Assembly: GCA_903875215.1 (NCBI GenBank)
Contig: CAIQVH010000033.1
Span: forward strand, 1-64,000
Direction: 5' to 3'
Length of the DNA: 64,000 nt
Source of the DNA: an uncultured Anaerolineae bacterium
GTDB taxonomy: Bacteria; Chloroflexota; Anaerolineae; Anaerolineales; Villigracilaceae
Shown here: in pieces, positions 21,657-63,465 of the stretch
How the letters are laid out: each line of letters begins with the position of its first letter
How positions within the stretch are numbered: position 1 is the first letter of the stretch
Translations under genes and position numbers: made by a program
Notes under the pieces: generated by a model
What the model was told of the DNA's origin: nothing
What the model saw: only the letters and a program-made list of their open reading frames with translations
Databases searched by the model: none

Positions 21657-21722
21657 TTTACGCCATATTTAGTTGTGCTTCACCTCCCCTTTACAGACAC
21701 AAAAAACGCCCTCAGGTATCAT
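21657..21722 (+). promoter_or_regulatory. 11-bp direct-repeat operator array and -10 box of the fliR operon
   Basis: Four pentamers are exactly 11 bp apart: TTTAC (21657), TTTAG (21668), TTCAC (21679), TTTAC (21690). TATCAT (21717-21722) begins 27 bp after the start of the last repeat. No good -35 is placed 17 bp before that -10, so transcription probably depends on an activator bound to the repeats. The same layout occurs at three other operons in the window. Geometry fits OmpR/PhoB-type direct-repeat sites; the protein is unknown. Confidence 0.75.
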
Positions 21723-27331: not shown

Positions 27332-28087
27332 ATGGTCATGCAAATGGAATCTGCCGGCATGCTGGAAGAATTCGTCACGTCACGCGCGCCGGAACTGCGT
27401 GAAAAGCTGGTCTTGCAGTCGGTGCCGCTGGTGCATTACCTGCTGGCGCGAATGGGACTGAACCAGGAACTGGGCAGCGACTACGAAGACCTGGCGCACC
27501 AGGGCCTGATTGGCCTGATCGAAGCGGTGGATCACTTTGACCCGCGCATGGGAGCCCGCTTCAGCACCTATGCCAGCCTGCGCATCCGCGGCAAAATTCT
27601 CGATTACCTGCGCACCTCCGACTGGATGCCGCGCGCGGCACGCAAACGGGCGCGTCTGATTCAGAAAACCATCAATACCCTGTGGTCTGAGAACCTGCGC
27701 GAGCCGACCGATGACGAAATCGCAGTCCGCCTGGGCCTCCACGTCGATGAAATTCAAAAGGGGTTGGCAGATGCCAACCGGGTGCTGGTTTCGCTCGATG
27801 CGCTGATGGAAACAGATGCAGGCCCTGAAGGTTCCCTGCACGAAAACCTGCGCGACGAAAAACAAGCCAACCCGGCAGATGTGGCCGAAGCTGGCAGCCT
27901 GATCGAACAAATGGGCAGCGCCCTGCTTAACCTGTCGGAGCGCGAACGGCTGATCCTGTCCCTGTACTACACCGACGAATTGACCTTCCGGGAGATCGGC
28001 AAAGTGCTCGAAATCACAGAATCGCGAGTCTGCCAGTTGCATGCGCGCGCGATCCTTTCTTTGAAAGCGATGATGAACCATGACTAA
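27332..28087 (+). CDS. fliA: Flagellar RNA polymerase sigma factor (sigma-28)
   Basis: 251 residues. Region 2 (DYEDLAHQGLIGLIEAVDHF, FSTYASLRIRGKILDYLRTS), region 3 and region 4 (LSERERLILSLYYTDELTFR, EIGKVLEITESRVCQLHARA) are all present. It directs class III flagellar transcription and should read the sigma-28 promoters found before flgM, fliC and fliS. The next gene begins 8 bp inside its end. Confidence 0.96.
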   Translation: MVMQMESAGMLEEFVTSRAPELREKLVLQSVPLVHYLLARMGLNQELGSDYEDLAHQGLIGLIEAVDHFDPRMGARFSTYASLRIRGKILDYLRTSDWMPRAARKRARLIQKTINTLWSENLREPTDDEIAVRLGLHVDEIQKGLADANRVLVSLDALMETDAGPEGSLHENLRDEKQANPADVAEAGSLIEQMGSALLNLSERERLILSLYYTDELTFREIGKVLEITESRVCQLHARAILSLKAMMNHD

Positions 28088-30081: not shown

Positions 30082-30378
30082 ATGAAGATTGAAAATAGTG
30101 GCATCCAGGCACTCAACACCCGCCCGGCTGAGACCCCTACCCGCATCGCCAAAAAAGAGGCCCGCAAGGACGTAAACGCGCTGCAGACCGGCCAGGATAA
30201 AGCCGAAATGTCTGAAAACGCGCGTCTGCTGGCCAGGGCTCGCACCGAGCTTGGCAATGTGGAAGAAACCAGCCCCGAAAGGCTGGAATCACTCCGTCAG
30301 GAAATCCAAAGCGGAGAATATACGGTGCAAGTCAACGAGCTCGCCAGAAAACTGGTGGCGAAGTTCTATCAAAAATGA
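30082..30378 (+). CDS. flgM: Anti-sigma-28 factor FlgM
   Basis: 98 residues. The C-terminal RLESLRQEIQSGEYTVQVNE plus LARKLV region is the sigma-28-binding segment of FlgM. It keeps FliA inactive until the hook is finished and FlgM is exported. SD AGGAGG is present. Being under its own sigma-28 promoter gives the usual negative feedback. Confidence 0.92.
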   Translation: MKIENSGIQALNTRPAETPTRIAKKEARKDVNALQTGQDKAEMSENARLLARARTELGNVEETSPERLESLRQEIQSGEYTVQVNELARKLVAKFYQK

Positions 30379-33304: not shown

Positions 33305-33379
33305 TTCACCAGCCCCAGCCAACACGCCCTCAGACGCCGGTGTTCCTACTGAAAACCCAGGTTTGTGGAGTGTGTCCTC

Positions 33380-33661
33380 ATGTTAATCCTAACCCGCAAG
33401 GCAGACGAAAGCATCACAATCGGTGACTCAATTGTCATCACCGTCCTGGCCATCGAAGGTGAACGGGTCAAACTTGGCATCAGCGCCCCGCGCGAGATGC
33501 TCATCCTGCGCCAGGAAGTCTTTACCGCCGTTCAGGAGCAGGTGAAAATTCAAGAATTGCTGGCCGATAAAACTGAGATGGAAGCTTTTGAACAACTGCG
33601 ACAGCTACTGGCCTCCGAAACTGAAAAGGATACCGAAGAACCGAAGGCAGACGCCTCCTGA
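33380..33661 (+). CDS. csrA: Carbon storage regulator CsrA
   Basis: 93 residues from the ATG at 33380 (GGAGTG upstream). The start [20 protein letters not shown] and [20 protein letters not shown] contain the RNA-binding residues. CsrA binds GGA in hairpin loops of mRNA. The tail after about residue 65 is longer than in most CsrA. In Bacillus and relatives fliW lies next to csrA; here there is no room for it. The likely target is the fliC leader at 42128. Confidence 0.95.
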
Positions 33662-33690
33662 GCTTGTCCCGCCCATCCCGCAGCGTTTCG

Positions 33691-33727
33691 GTGCTTCTTT
33701 CGCCTAGAAAGAAGCACTTTCATTTTC
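33691..33727 (+). terminator. Intrinsic terminator after csrA
   Basis: Perfect 11-bp stem (GTGCTTCTTTC / GAAAGAAGCAC) with a 5-nt loop, followed by TTTCATTTT. It ends the flgM-csrA transcript and is followed 38 bp later by the cheA operator array. Confidence 0.85.
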
Positions 33728-33765: not shown

Positions 33766-33831
33766 TTTACCTGATTTTTGGCATCTCTTTACGGATGATT
33801 TACATAGAAAAGAGTGCCACTATGCTATCTT
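33766..33831 (+). promoter_or_regulatory. 11-bp direct-repeat operator array and -10 box of the cheA operon
   Basis: Pentamers at 33766 (TTTAC), 33777 (TTTGG), 33788 (TTTAC) and 33799 (TTTAC) are exactly 11 bp apart, and TATCTT starts at 33826, 27 bp after the start of the last repeat. This is the same layout as at fliR, flgC and the minus-strand operon. An alternative sigma-A reading, TTTACA (33799) - 16 bp - TATGCT (33821), is possible here. Confidence 0.72.
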
Positions 33832-37474: not shown

Positions 37475-38572
37475 ATGACCAACTTAGCGCAAACTCCCGC
37501 TGTTCAGAAATCACCCAACCCAGTGCGGGTACTGGTCGTGGACGATTCCGCATTTATGCGGTTTGCCATTTCCCAGCAGCTCAATGAAGATCCGGAGATT
37601 CAGGTCATTGGCACAGCCAGTGATGGCCGCGAAGCCCTGCGCTTGATCCCCCAGTTGCAACCGGAAGTGATCACTCTGGATGTGGAAATGCCCCGCCTTG
37701 ATGGGTTATCCACCCTGCGTGAGATCATGCATGATTTCCCGCGCCCGGTCATCATGTTCAGCAGCCTGACCAAGGAAGGTGCGGCTGAAACCATCCAGGC
37801 GCTGATGCTCGGCGCGATTGATTTCATCGCCAAACCTGCCAACCGCCTTGATATTCGTGGCGCCATGAGCGAGATGGCCACCAAGATCAAAGTCGCGGCC
37901 AAGGCGCGGGTCAAGCCCTTCCCGGCCCGCCAGCGCGCGGCGGAAGTACGTCCGCCGGTAAGTATGCCTGAAAAACCGGTGCGCCCCTTCGACAAAACCA
38001 ACCCGGTCATCCTGATTGGGTGTTCCACGGGCGGGCCGGGTGCGCTGAATGAGATTGTGCCGGCTTTGCCGGCCAGCCTGTCTTCTCCGGTGATGATTGT
38101 GCAGCATATGCCCGCCGGATTCACCCGCTCGCTGGCAGAACGTCTCAATACCATCTCTGTTCTCAAAGTCAAAGAAGCCGAACCTGGCGATCCGCTCCTG
38201 GTGGGGCAGGTTTTGCTGGCCCCTGGCGGATTTCACATGGTGCTCGATGAACAGGAACAGGTGGCGCTCAATCAGAAACCCGCCGTGCATGGTGTGCGGC
38301 CTGCCGTGGATGTGACCCTCACCTCCCTGGTTCAGCGCTATAACCGGAATGTTATCGCAGTGATCCTGACGGGTATGGGCAGCGATGGAACGCACGGCGC
38401 CTCGCTGCTGCACAGCCTGGGCGGGCATGTCATCGCCGAACATGAGAGCACCTGCATCGTCTGGGGCATGCCCCGCAGCGTACAGGAAGCCGGAGCCGCC
38501 AGCGAGATCCTGCCGCGTCACAAAATCGCTCGCGCCATTGAACGCGCCATCCGGGATTCGCAGCACAACTGA
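37475..38572 (+). CDS. cheB: Chemotaxis methylesterase CheB
   Basis: 365 residues. Receiver domain at the N-terminus (RVLVVDDSAFMRF, ITLDVEMPRLDG), a linker, then a methylesterase domain with nucleophile Ser in GCSTGGPGAL, His in VQHMPAGF and Asp in GMGSDGTHG. It demethylates and deamidates receptors when phosphorylated by CheA. Next gene is cheR, its counterpart. Confidence 0.96.
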   Translation: MTNLAQTPAVQKSPNPVRVLVVDDSAFMRFAISQQLNEDPEIQVIGTASDGREALRLIPQLQPEVITLDVEMPRLDGLSTLREIMHDFPRPVIMFSSLTKEGAAETIQALMLGAIDFIAKPANRLDIRGAMSEMATKIKVAAKARVKPFPARQRAAEVRPPVSMPEKPVRPFDKTNPVILIGCSTGGPGALNEIVPALPASLSSPVMIVQHMPAGFTRSLAERLNTISVLKVKEAEPGDPLLVGQVLLAPGGFHMVLDEQEQVALNQKPAVHGVRPAVDVTLTSLVQRYNRNVIAVILTGMGSDGTHGASLLHSLGGHVIAEHESTCIVWGMPRSVQEAGAASEILPRHKIARAIERAIRDSQHN

Positions 38573-41980: not shown

Positions 41981-42127
41981 TATATGCGTAAGAAAAAAAA
42001 CAGCTTCAAAAAACTCAACCTGTGGAGGTGCGCGAATATCCCGAAAGATTAATCTGAAACACCCTCATCCCGAGTTTGCAAGACCGTGACCCCGTCACAC
42101 GCAAGTCATCAGTTTTTCAATCAAAAT

Positions 42128-42141
42128 GGGGAAGGATCCCC
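42128..42141 (+). promoter_or_regulatory. GGA-loop hairpin in the fliC leader (candidate CsrA site)
   Basis: GGGG (42128-42131) pairs with CCCC (42138-42141) around the loop AAGGAT, the form of site CsrA prefers. A second ANGGA (ATGGA, 42159-42163) overlaps the fliC Shine-Dalgarno GGAGG (42161-42165). A two-site layout with one on the SD is known from the Bacillus hag leader. The leader is about 185 nt long from the predicted start. Confidence 0.6.
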
Positions 42142-42171
42142 TAACACTCAATTCAAACATGGAGGTTTGAA

Positions 42172-46567: not shown

Positions 46568-46607
46568 AAAGGCAACGTCCTTCCCCCAGGAAGGACGTTG
46601 CCTTTTT
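46568..46607 (+). terminator. Intrinsic terminator after fliS
   Basis: Perfect 17-bp stem (AAAGGCAACGTCCTTCC and its complement) with a 4-nt loop and T-run. It ends the filament gene block; the flgC operator array begins 4 bp after it. Confidence 0.93.
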
Positions 46608-46610
46608 AAA

Positions 46611-46676
46611 TTCACACGAATTTTATTTTAACTTCACACCCCTTTTACTGTGCCTTTTTCCTTGATTTGATACCAT
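46611..46676 (+). promoter_or_regulatory. 11-bp direct-repeat operator array and -10 box of the flgC operon
   Basis: Pentamers at 46611 (TTCAC), 46622 (TTTAT), 46633 (TTCAC) and 46644 (TTTAC), exactly 11 bp apart; TACCAT (46671-46676) starts 27 bp after the start of the last. Same geometry as at fliR, cheA and the minus-strand operon. flgC starts at 46698. Confidence 0.75.
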
Positions 46677-58729: not shown

Positions 58730-60079
58730 TTACACCTCGATATCCACAGCCTTAAGCGGCTTATCCGTGTTCCGGATGATTAACAGCTCCTCAAAGGGGG
58801 CCGGTACTCCCACTTCCACCTGCGCCTCCTGCAGAGCAAACCCAAGCCTTTGCAGCCCCGCCTCGAGCGAACCCAGCTCCACGCGAGCCTGTTCGCACCA
58901 GGCGGTTCCCGGCGCCACCAACCGCGCGCGAATCTCCCGGCCGGCCAGCGCCAGATCCACCTCCACCGTTTCTCCGGACCCAAGCTCCACTTGCAACTGC
59001 AATCGCGTAATTGCCGCATCTTTTTTGACCGGATCCGGGCCAGATTCCCGGCCAATGCGCAGCCGCGCTGCCCACGGCAATTTCTGCGCCGCGGCAGCAG
59101 CTGGCTGGAGCAGTAAACCGATTTCAGACCATTCTCCCCGCCCAGGTTCCCTCGCATTCAACAACTGGTGATGACGCTCATCACCCAGGAATTCATCCAC
59201 CACCCCGGCCAATTCCCGCTCCCCGGCCTGTTCCAATGCCTGACGCAGCCGGAGCAGGCCCACCAGCCCGGTTTCGGGCAATTCCTGCCCGGGCTGTTGC
59301 GCCTGCTCGAGCAGCAGATTCTCCAATGAGCGCCCCATGCGCCGGACGGTTTCGCGCAGCTGCTCCGCCAGCTGGGAAGATCCCTGTTCACCATTCAGCA
59401 CCATCGCCCGCAGCCAGCCGAGATTGTCCTGCAACAGCCTGGCCAGCTCCGGTGAAAATTCCTGCCCGGATGCCGTGCCCAGCGCCGCGATCAGGCGCGC
59501 CAGCCCTGCACCGGCCGGGGAGGCCGGACGGGCCGCCAGTGCCAGGCTCTGACGGGTCAGCGGCAGGCCGGCTGCCTTCAGCGCAGCCGCCAGATCGGCC
59601 TGCTCCGCCCCCCAAGGGGTCAAACCGGCCAGCGCGTCCTGCATTTCATCCAGCAGGCCTGGCGTGACGGGCAGATGCTGTTTGAGCACCGAGCGCGCCA
59701 TCATCAAGTTGTTGATGGTCACAGGCAAATGTTGTTGCTCCAGCAGGCGCACAGCCAGTTCCGGTCCATTCAAATTTGGGGTGGGCGCCTTCGCCGGGGT
59801 GGGGGTCTCATGGTTGACGAATTTCAATGTAATTTCCTGGTCGGTCAGCCGTGTAACGATAAATTGGGCCGTCCGGCGCGCGAGCAGGGCAGCGGCCTGG
59901 TCGGGCGATGCCAGCTGCGCCACCACAGGGTACCCTTCAATCGTTAAAATGGCCGTATTGCCGCTGACGCTCAGGATTTGTGCCGAGACGCGTTGAAAAG
60001 CATGCAGCCCCAGCTCCTGTGCGGCAGGAGTCTGGGGCGCGTGAAGCGGTGATACCGAAAGCGGCCCGGGAAAAGTCAT
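58730..60079 (-). CDS. FliK-like protein upstream of the FlhB-like gene
   Basis: 449 residues, Ala/Leu/Gln-rich. The N-terminus has a small beta domain (residues about 30-110), the centre is helical, and the end LQLQVELGSGETVEVDLALA with LGSLEAGLQRLGFALQEAQV resembles the hook-length control domain. Such YlqG-type proteins stand beside YlqH in Bacillus and Clostridia. With fliK at 53861 the cluster has two FliK-like genes. Exact function unknown. Confidence 0.65.
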   Translation of the reverse strand: MTFPGPLSVSPLHAPQTPAAQELGLHAFQRVSAQILSVSGNTAILTIEGYPVVAQLASPDQAAALLARRTAQFIVTRLTDQEITLKFVNHETPTPAKAPTPNLNGPELAVRLLEQQHLPVTINNLMMARSVLKQHLPVTPGLLDEMQDALAGLTPWGAEQADLAAALKAAGLPLTRQSLALAARPASPAGAGLARLIAALGTASGQEFSPELARLLQDNLGWLRAMVLNGEQGSSQLAEQLRETVRRMGRSLENLLLEQAQQPGQELPETGLVGLLRLRQALEQAGERELAGVVDEFLGDERHHQLLNAREPGRGEWSEIGLLLQPAAAAAQKLPWAARLRIGRESGPDPVKKDAAITRLQLQVELGSGETVEVDLALAGREIRARLVAPGTAWCEQARVELGSLEAGLQRLGFALQEAQVEVGVPAPFEELLIIRNTDKPLKAVDIEV

Positions 60080-61590: not shown

Positions 61591-61656
61591 ATTCTAGCCT
61601 TGGAGGGCGGGGATGTCAGTAAATGGGACATAAAAATCTCATGAGTTGCGGCTAAA
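61591..61656 (-). promoter_or_regulatory. 11-bp direct-repeat operator array and -10 box of the minus-strand operon
   Basis: On the minus strand: TTTAG (61656-61652), CTCAT (61645-61641), TTTAT (61634-61630) and TTTAC (61623-61619), period exactly 11, and TAGAAT (61596-61591) 27 bp after the start of the last repeat. Same layout as the other three arrays. On the opposite strand a TTTAT/TTTAC pair (61660, 61671) faces the glycosyltransferase gene. Confidence 0.7.
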
Positions 61657-61800
61657 TTGTTTATCTCTTCTTTACGCAATATTCAGAAGGGCTTTATAGA
61701 TGAAAAATCCATTTTCCACTATACTAAAAATACGAGGCAAACTAATCATTTCCTGGCAGCCGGCCTCGCCGGGTTATTCTTTTTTCCGCAGGTGAAAGTG

Positions 61801-63465
61801 ATGCAAACCGAGTTAAAAGTCAGGCAAATTTTGGGTCGAACCTACCTGAATGAAAACCGCCTTGAGGAGGCGCTGGATGTTTTTACCCGAATCCTGGCGG
61901 ATTATCCGGAGGATCTCGAGACGCTGCTCATCCTTGGGAATTTTTATCTGGCCAGCGGAGATGGGAAAACCGCCCAGGCGCTTTACATGCGCGCCCGGCA
62001 GCTGAATCCTGCAAACAAGACCATCGAACGCCAGCTGGCACTGGCGGAGGAGATGGGAGACAGCGGTCTCCCCGAGACGTCTCCCACCGATCTGCCGGCG
62101 GTGGCGCGCCTGCTCCAGCGCCTGACTGGCCAGAACAAAAGCGTCAGCGAGACAGACATTTTACGCGCGGCTACGCTCCTCGACAGAATTATCAACAGCG
62201 AAAACCCGGCCGCCCTGGTGTCGGAACATCTGGACGAGATTGACGAACTTCTGCCGGCGTTGATTGAATTAAATATCCGCCAGGCTTATGCTGATGGCCG
62301 CCACGACCTGGTGGAGGTATTGCGTGTCCTGCAGCTGAATATTGATTACCAACTCGATGCCCGAAGTGAAAACGTGGCTGGCAGCGATGTGCCTGCCGTG
62401 TATGAAGGCCGGATCTGTCTGCTCCTGCCAGACCTTGAGAATAAATCGGCGCGCATGACCACGCTGAAAACCGCGCTGGAGGCGCTAGGCTGCCAGGTGA
62501 CCGAGCGGAGTGAGTACCTTCCGGCCCGGGATCAGAAACCGGATGTGGTCATTACCAGCAATCCGCATATTAACCCGGCGCTCTGCGAAAGCCTGGAAGC
62601 GCTTGCGGCGGCGCAGATCCCGATCCTGCTCGACCTGGATACGGATTTTGAGAAGCAGCCGATTTCGCATCACGCCTACCTGACGCAGGGGCTGGGTACT
62701 CAGCTGCGCAGCAATGCCTACACTACCGCCCTGGCCCTGGCTGACCTGGTGACAGTTCCCTCTGAAACGCTGGCTGTTGGGTTGGGTGATGTTACCCGGC
62801 GCATCTGCCTGCTTCCGGATGGCTGGGCGAGCCAAAACAAACTCTGGGAGAAACCTGCTCCTTCGCGCAGTACACTCAATATTGGCTGGGTGGGCACGAA
62901 CGGCGAATTGGAAGACCTGGTCATTGTGAGGCGCTACATCCTGCGCATTCTGCGCGAATTCCCACACACACGGATCGTGGTGTTGGGCAACCCGCAAGCC
63001 TATCGTTTGTTTGAGAGCTTGCCGGAAAACCGGCGGTTGTATCTGCCGGTCGTCGCGCACGAAGAATTTCCCTACCTGCTCAGCCAGCTCGATATTCTGC
63101 TGGTGCCTTTGCGCAACCTGCCCTACAACCTGTCGCTGCCCGATACGGCGCTGGTGGAAGCGGGCGCACGGGGCATTCCCTGGCTGGCATCTCCAACCCC
63201 CGCTTTCCGCCGCTGGAAGGCCGGAGGGATTTTATGTGAAAGTCCCGATGACTGGCATCTTAACCTGCGTCACCTGGTGATGGATGATGACCTGCGCCAG
63301 ACCCTGGGAACAGCAGGCAAAAACGCCGCCCGCGCGCGCGAGATGAGCCAGCTCGGCCCGCTGTGGCTGGAGCGAATCCGCCAGGTCAGCGCGGAAAAGT
63401 CAGCCTTACGTCGCAGCCCGGAAAACCAACCGGCCATATCCACAGAACTCGGAGTCTCGCGTTGA
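61801..63465 (+). CDS. TPR / glycosyltransferase-like protein
   Basis: 554 residues from the ATG at 61801 (AGGTG six bases upstream); earlier in-frame ATGs lie in the promoter region. About residues 1-85 form TPR repeats (ILGRTYLNENRLEEALDVFT). The C-terminal half, from about 195, looks like a GT4-type glycosyltransferase (VVITSNPHINPAL, LNIGWVGTNGELEDLVIV, LLVPLRNLPYNLSLPDTALV). Possibly it modifies the flagellin, as the island ends here; this is a guess from position. Confidence 0.7.
   Translation: MQTELKVRQILGRTYLNENRLEEALDVFTRILADYPEDLETLLILGNFYLASGDGKTAQALYMRARQLNPANKTIERQLALAEEMGDSGLPETSPTDLPAVARLLQRLTGQNKSVSETDILRAATLLDRIINSENPAALVSEHLDEIDELLPALIELNIRQAYADGRHDLVEVLRVLQLNIDYQLDARSENVAGSDVPAVYEGRICLLLPDLENKSARMTTLKTALEALGCQVTERSEYLPARDQKPDVVITSNPHINPALCESLEALAAAQIPILLDLDTDFEKQPISHHAYLTQGLGTQLRSNAYTTALALADLVTVPSETLAVGLGDVTRRICLLPDGWASQNKLWEKPAPSRSTLNIGWVGTNGELEDLVIVRRYILRILREFPHTRIVVLGNPQAYRLFESLPENRRLYLPVVAHEEFPYLLSQLDILLVPLRNLPYNLSLPDTALVEAGARGIPWLASPTPAFRRWKAGGILCESPDDWHLNLRHLVMDDDLRQTLGTAGKNAARAREMSQLGPLWLERIRQVSAEKSALRRSPENQPAISTELGVSR

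Follow-up and report, generated by a model that had tools for sequence, protein, structure and literature searches.

Arrays of four 11-bp direct repeats as candidate operators before motility operons and an OmpR/PhoB-type regulator gene in Anaerolineales

Here, we report that arrays of 11-bp direct repeats precede the motility operons of an uncultured member of the Anaerolineales as well as the gene of a response regulator of the OmpR/PhoB type, and we describe them as candidate operators to which this regulator is predicted to bind. Judged from sequence, the array is very probably the operator of an activator, combined with a core promoter of the sigma-70 type, and the regulator reading it would switch on the early motility operons. 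The window analysed comprises bases 1–64000 of contig C33 (105,344 bases), which belongs to a 3.77-Mb genome of 38 contigs that is 98.6% complete. The FlhA of this genome shares 87% identity with its counterpart in a MAG labelled Anaerolinea thermophila and 68% with the one in a Candidatus Aquidulcis MAG. Anaerolinea is a member of the Chloroflexota, class Anaerolineae, order Anaerolineales, and we regard the present genome as that of a flagellate from this group.

The first-pass annotation had described four sites in the window, before fliR, cheA, flgC and, on the minus strand, the M23 operon, and all four are present with the geometry 11/11/11/27 bp that it gave, the last figure being the distance from the start of the fourth unit to a -10 hexamer (Table 1). 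Its unit, TTYAY at all four positions of each array, is correct for flgC only. Unit 2 departs from it at fliR (TTTAC/TTTAG/TTCAC/TTTAC), at cheA (TTTGG) and at M23 (CTCAT), and TTYAN is therefore the better wording. A further array, missing from the earlier list, stands back to back with the M23 array on the plus strand and precedes a TPR-glycosyltransferase gene (61792–63465). Such back-to-back arrays between divergent units (61591–61725 in the window) were also seen in G013:C31 at about 37600–37757, where a minus-strand array at 37663 is paired with a weaker plus-strand array at 37692, and in G090:C24:16448-16580, between a glycosyltransferase gene and an rmlC-like sugar epimerase gene, the latter not a motility gene. 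Three of the four listed arrays follow a terminator-like hairpin, as had been claimed: at fliR it was identified by eye and the hairpin tool listed none there on the plus strand, at flgC it occupies 46568–46605 and was listed by the tool on the minus strand, and at cheA it lies at 33690–33718, 48 bp upstream. Directly upstream of the M23 array the tool found no hairpin. The fliR operon runs fliR-flhB-flhA-flhF-fliA-...-flgM-flgN-flgK-flgL-csrA, with Pfam as the basis for the names fliR, flhB, sigma factor, flgK, flgM and csrA; the remaining gene names, and the name FliA for the sigma factor, are those that we presume from the sequences. The M23 operon contains the M23 peptidase gene, a PilZ-like gene and an unnamed gene (58730–60079) which gave no Pfam match and appears FliK-like by eye only.

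Table 1. Arrays, promoter elements and genes on contig C33; E-values are from R1, a profile built on relatives only
Feature	Position	Strand	Remarks
Four direct repeats, 11-bp pitch, 5' of fliR operon	21657..21694	+	Best match in own genome, E=1.3e-8
-35-like CAGACA, fliR operon	21694..21699	+	17 bp before -10; overlaps last base of repeat 4
-10 TATCAT, fliR operon	21717..21722	+	27 bp after start of repeat 4
FliA-type sigma factor gene, in array-led fliR operon	27332..28087	+	Pfam sigma-70 regions 2, 3, 4
flgM (anti-sigma-28), fliR operon	30082..30378	+	PF04316; TIGR03824 above cut-off
csrA, end of fliR operon	33365..33661	+	PF02599; NF002469 above cut-off
Array and -10 (TATCTT), 5' of cheA operon	33766..33831	+	E=0.003; CheA domains by Pfam
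Array and -10 (TACCAT), 5' of flgC-fliE-fliF-fliG...	46611..46676	+	E=7e-4; rod-protein and FliF domains by Pfam
Array and -10 (TAGAAT), 5' of M23 operon	61591..61656	-	E=0.03 (matches 61591-61635)
Array and -10 (TATACT), 5' of TPR-glycosyltransferase gene	61660..61725	+	E=0.011
Histidine kinase gene, 3' of regulator gene	65391-67022	-	PAS, HisKA, HATPase_c domains
Response regulator gene	67210-68103	-	Likely ATG near 67968; receiver and Trans_reg_C domains
Four repeats before regulator gene	68249-68286	-	E=0.02
Array and -10 before motA	91318-91383	-	E=5.7e-8; MotA and FliP by Pfam
Weaker array before MCP gene	94665-94730	+	Hand-set matrix; not among R1 matches in own genome

The arrays are not confined to the window, and the same 11/11/11 spacing followed by 27 bp to the -10 is found before the motA operon and before MCP genes on two contigs. 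With an exact search for three consecutive TTYAY units the genome yielded flgC (in two registers) and C33 91346 on the minus strand, which is part of a complete array before motA, outside the window, with TAAAGT at +27; the control, with the pattern reversed, gave one match. A scoring matrix, set by hand after the sites of this genome had been seen, was applied to the 105-kb contig and found nine places scoring at least 28: fliR, flgC, 61660 plus, motA, cheA, the MCP array at 94665, the regulator gene (68286 minus), M23 and a second MCP array at 94426. The best score was 21.8 both in 100 shuffles checked for length and dinucleotides and in a further 100 that kept mononucleotides, 60 order-3 Markov copies reached 22.1 at most, and a 400-kb sample from five other contigs of the genome held a single place of at least 18, at 20.1. 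No place on C33 reached 30 with periods of 8–10 or 12–14. Because the sites in alignments A2 and A3 were selected with this matrix, the invariant columns there overstate conservation.

Profile R1 is a sequence-only profile made from 37 sites of relatives, with no site from this genome. It had at least eight matches here at E≤10 (150 of 464 first-look candidates scored), and where the first-pass annotation had asked whether matches would be scattered over the genome, all eight fall at genes of the flagellum or of chemotaxis, at the glycosyltransferase gene that adjoins them or at the regulator. By class they comprise five flagellar or chemotaxis operons, one MCP gene, the glycosyltransferase gene and the regulator gene, and none is at a phosphate gene. 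The match outside C33, at C29:11403 (E=0.003), is 44 bp before a long MCP-like frame, and the two weakest are those upstream of the regulator gene and of M23. The TPR-glycosyltransferase-like gene adjoins the flagellar cluster, as do two genes at C33 63363–65375, which we take to be a second glycosyltransferase-like gene and a sulfatase-modifying-factor-like gene. An array precedes the TPR-glycosyltransferase gene in 10 of 16 flagellates of the order (G000, G002, G010, G013, G037, G050, G065, G074, G090 and G098), which suggests a link to flagellin glycosylation.

The fixed spacing to the -10 was assessed in 62 arrays, own arrays included, that were picked by their four units alone; the test is thereby free of circularity and concerns spacing only. 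TANNNT stands at exactly +27 in 50 of the 62 and at +28 in four, and 13 also have one at +22. A weak -35-like sequence, YTGACN, abuts the last unit 17 bp before TANNNT (C 37, T 25, G 35, A 24, C 26 and A 17 over the 50 arrays); at the M23 array it reads CTGACA. The array before the regulator's own gene has no -10 at +27 and stands at another distance from its likely -10.

Conservation of the array was followed in 101 genomes of the order, among which FlhA was matched in 17 and FliP in 16. After weak matches had been dropped (FlhA in G020 with 30% identity and G092 with 21%; FliP in G025 with E=5.6e-4), 16 genomes were regarded as flagellates, including G050, which was counted because 57 residues of FlhA were matched at the end of a contig, next to flhF, fliA and flgG. 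At E≤0.01 at least 22 genomes match R1. As R1 included sites from genomes without FlhA or FliP, a second profile, R2, was built from flagellate sites only, and it matches 19 of the 101 genomes, including all 16 flagellates, which represent eight families (at most 51 first-look candidates were scored per genome in either search). The array is thus kept at the flagellar genes of flagellate relatives, in agreement with the conservation that the first-pass annotation had proposed to look for. Contigs of relatives that carry fliR together with upstream sequence number 13, and two of these come from named MAGs. An array stands directly before fliR in 11 of the 13, and in the other two (G015 and G099) fliR follows fliP and the array precedes fliP. 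A fliP match with one in-frame TGA was seen in three genomes of one genus (G015:C23:129686-130366, G099:C10 and G055:C166). The motA array scores at least 26 in 11 contigs and is weak in G015 (12.3), G099 (12.3), G055 (15.7), G010 (17.2) and G057 (22.7). Six genomes have an array directly before flgC (G000, G013, G065, G074, G090 and G098); in G002, G010, G017 and G037 it precedes a gene of 415–469 aa without Pfam match, which is followed by flgC. This protein between array and flgC is found at G002:C320, G037:C119, G010:C174 and G017:C15.

Sites in relatives scoring at least 26 numbered 48, one of them a shifted duplicate; all fall outside the genes of the query set, 39 of them within about 400 bp upstream of such a gene. 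On further contigs 21 R1 places were inspected, C29 of the own genome included: nine precede a TPR-glycosyltransferase gene, two flgC, two the unnamed gene before flgC, two an MCP gene, one an M23 gene, one a hybrid histidine kinase gene followed by chemotaxis-like genes and one an rmlC-like gene, while one follows cheX at the end of its contig and those in G055:C130 and G067:C329 are without a named gene. Downstream of the G055:C130 array there is no frame of 90 aa. Five R1 rows fall outside the inspected set (G037:C191, G037:C32, G010:C364, G010:C456 and G057:C253). G067 was rejected as a genome carrying the operator: its R1 match (E=0.0015, positions 8–43) is before an unnamed frame with no motility gene in the 3.3 kb around it, and it is absent with R2.

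The window has no gene for a PhoB-like regulator, as had been noted, and a candidate of the OmpR/PhoB type was found 3.2 kb past its end. The proposed search for such a regulator linked to motility genes thereby succeeded beyond the window, and the candidate co-occurs with the array. It scores 101.6 bits with PF00072 (cut-off 30.2) and 71.2 bits with PF00486 (cut-off 26.2); 18 Trans_reg_C proteins of the genome are above the latter cut-off, one of them on C33. Its gene is placed between two flagellar clusters, that of the window and motA-fliP at 86–91 kb, and is 23 kb from motA. At C33 83917–85721, at the end of the motA cluster, fliP is followed by genes for a receiver-kinase fusion and a CheY-like receiver. 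Synteny is tighter in 11 of the 16 flagellates, where the regulator is within one or two genes of motA (G002, G013, G015, G037, G050, G055, G065, G074, G090, G098 and G099). G057 has two copies, of which the second is near motA and the first is not, in G017 the regulator is elsewhere, and in G010 regulator and motA are on separate contigs, both cut nearby. The flagellate G005 has arrays and no orthologue was found in it; since its motA contig begins about 100 bp before the array, a gap in the assembly may be the cause. Set against 21 paralogues, the orthologues group as a single clade (support 100/100), and the phospho-acceptor Asp of the receiver is present in 20 of 20 aligned orthologues. 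The recognition helix GSPDLVRVHxKNLRE is nearly invariant among them, unlike in the aligned paralogues (23 rows, one without sequence there). Arrays precede the regulator operon in the own genome, in G003, in G017 and, weakly, at the second copy of G057.

All 101 genomes give some match to the regulator, mostly to other regulators of the OmpR type. Orthologues, taken as at least 53% identity over the length, were found in 20 genomes and, with the partial matches in G037, G082 and G098, in 23 of 101. An orthologue is present in 15 of 16 flagellates versus 8 of 85 other genomes (p=2.4e-11, shared ancestry ignored), and the R2 array in 18 of 23 genomes with the regulator versus 1 of 78 without it (p=1.6e-14, likewise ignoring shared ancestry); seen from the array, 18 of 19 genomes have the regulator. 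This co-occurrence was computed for one of the 18 Trans_reg_C proteins, the regulator on C33. Among the 85 genomes without FlhA and FliP the array occurs in three of eight with the regulator (G003, G030 and G054) versus none of 77 without (p=5.7e-4, ancestry again ignored). The regulator is present without an array match in G044, G045 and G082, and G001 and G016 match R1 only, their own sites having been part of the R1 training.

No FlhA or FliP was found in G054, G003, G016, G030 and G001, in which array and regulator lie beside FliA/FlgN-like genes, FlgN-like genes, or FlhF-like together with CheY-like genes. Such genomes may retain a remnant or possess another machine. As array and regulator persist there, it is conceivable, though we think it rather unlikely, that they form a motility switch of the whole order which remained after the flagellum was lost and may today operate a so far unrecognised apparatus for motility or secretion. 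An archaellum was considered for the regulator-bearing genomes of this kind and rejected, as PF01917 had no match in the 101 genomes.

Beyond the order, 301 genomes across the phylum were searched, of which 35 are flagellate by FlhA. Spread of the array outside the order was rejected: strong R2 matches were restricted to two genomes of the order, G000 and G013, among the 17 first-look candidates scored, and the other 33 flagellates showed no R2 array among these candidates. Weak partial R2 matches in G103, G196 and G254, genomes without a FlhA match, were treated as chance. Among the eight candidates scored for the regulator, orthologues of at least 53% identity were limited to G000, G013, G001 and G234, the last belonging to the class and not to the order, with a regulator of 53% identity and no array in the surrounding 3.7 kb. 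Because strong arrays and orthologues in the phylum sample come almost solely from this order, the circuit is apparently confined to it and its surroundings, and other flagellate Chloroflexota probably use something else.

Arrays stand before early flagellar operons, including the operon of the FliA-type sigma gene, and are conserved there in relatives, which is the placement of the sites of a class II master regulator. We propose the following mechanism. With the -10 hexamer taken as -12 to -7, the four head-to-tail TTYAN half-sites would occupy about -72 to -35. Phosphorylated regulator molecules would bind them, and because there are four units, a pair of dimers arranged in tandem along the same helix face is proposed. 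The proximal dimer would contact the sigma factor at -35 and so replace a good -35 hexamer; by analogy with the layout of PhoB and CtrA promoters, the activator probably takes the place of the -35. The targets switched on would be the fliR, flgC, motA, cheA and M23 operons, the TPR-glycosyltransferase gene and the MCP genes, an early, class II-like set. As the fliR operon holds both the FliA-type sigma gene and flgM, the regulator would sit above the FliA/FlgM stage, and FliA and FlgM from this operon would time the late genes. CsrA would act on the flagellin mRNA. The fliC leader (42127–42171 in the window) folds into two hairpins with GGA in each loop, the first being GGGGAAGGAUCCCC and the other located at the ribosome-binding site; with csrA ending the fliR operon, this resembles CsrA control of the flagellin mRNA. 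The leaders of G065 and G090 fold alike and those of G017, G098 and G015 are similar in sequence, with fold z-scores of -1.3 to -2.3. A sigma-28 promoter before fliC was rejected as unconvincing, the best agreement in the own genome with the consensus that we presume (TAAA-N14..16-GCCGATAA) being 8 of 12.

Several other readings of the arrays deserve consideration. The arrays could be read by another regulator of the OmpR/PhoB family, for example a PhoP-like phosphate regulator, with the flagellar-adjacent one as a passenger. The 18 Trans_reg_C proteins of the genome leave room for this, and unit and pitch do resemble actinobacterial PHO boxes, given in the available part of PMC4415409 as 11-nt direct repeat units GTTCACC. 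Against it, the array tracks this particular regulator even in genomes without FlhA and FliP, the recognition helix is conserved in its orthologues and not in the aligned paralogues, arrays stand before its own operon in three genomes (own, G003 and G017), and none of the eight own-genome matches is at a phosphate gene; we consider a different reader improbable. We give the same small weight to repression, or mixed activation and repression, of the motility operons by the same regulator. OmpR-family proteins act both ways depending on site position, CtrA half sites over the -10 repressing and those near the -35 activating in the account seen of PMC6180460, and the array of the regulator's own gene is at a different distance from its likely -10. 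At the motility operons, a fixed upstream position ending at -35 together with a poor -35 hexamer is the layout that we infer for an activator.

An extended core promoter for a particular sigma factor, or an upstream element of curved DNA made of phased T-tracts, would also account for pentamers rich in T that recur at close to the helical pitch and for a -10 at fixed distance. The units are not plain T-tracts, however, having a conserved A and a varying last base, and the presence of the array follows a response regulator across genomes, with all eight own-genome matches at one gene class and its neighbours, which makes such an element very improbable. That the arrays arose by chance in A+T-rich intergenic DNA, which does yield more T-rich pentamers, or are recent copies sharing ancestry, can practically be dismissed: the spacers between units differ from site to site, neither the shuffles nor the 400-kb genome sample came near the observed scores, and the array is found in eight flagellate families.

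By sequence the closest relatives of the regulator are MtrA, RpaA and RpaB, whose biology differs. Its best NCBIfam models are MtrA (185.4 bits, cut-off 300) and RpaB (171.9, cut-off 330), both far below cut-off, so that it is not MtrA by the curated model, and its best PDB chain is RpaA (E=5.8e-44). Nor is it PhoB by TIGR02154 (156.8 bits, cut-off 296.2) or CtrA by NF045991 (111.0 bits, cut-off 350). The finding provides a concrete candidate regulator, kinase and operator, with a regulon that is predictable from sequence alone in uncultured genomes, and four units with one fixed -10 offer a natural series on how tandem OmpR-family dimers reach RNA polymerase. Flagella have a scattered distribution in the Chloroflexota, of which 233 of 3,780 genomes are potentially flagellated, and Tepidiforma thermophila is called the only known flagellated one (PMC12488501). 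Flagellar control in this phylum was not found as a subject among the titles and abstract starts listed in our searches of open-licence papers.

The arrays are like the PHO boxes of PhoB in E. coli and PhoP in Streptomyces in combining 11-nt direct repeats with a winged-helix OmpR/PhoB regulator, here a predicted one; the Streptomyces units are bound head to tail, and their GTTCACC contains TTCAC (PMC4415409, in part). They differ in that the targets here are motility and not phosphate genes and that four units are in fixed register with a -10. CtrA of the Alphaproteobacteria is likewise an OmpR-family response regulator with 11-bp repeat sites, described in the portion seen of PMC6180460 as TTAA-N7-TTAA near the -35 of activated promoters, flagellar ones included; the present system differs in having four units instead of two, the unit TTYAN and a host among the Chloroflexota. 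Rem of Sinorhizobium, an OmpR-like activator of class II flagellar genes (PMC6180460), and FtcR of Brucella, which is OmpR-like and binds in front of both fliF and the gene that encodes FtcR (PMC9456535), resemble it as regulators of flagellar genes, as far as the excerpts of these sources go. In the same excerpts no shared repeat array is described for Rem or FtcR, and by these descriptions the present system is set apart by one rigid array that serves at least eight units and by a histidine kinase gene next door. The first-pass annotation had suggested that a PhoB-like class II flagellar master regulator would be a new circuit; the role itself is supported by inference, and the principle is not new, since CtrA, Rem and FtcR act in this way in Alphaproteobacteria. 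The OmpR family may have been recruited here as flagellar master separately from CtrA, Rem and FtcR. What is new is the lineage, this clade of regulators and the fixed array of four units.
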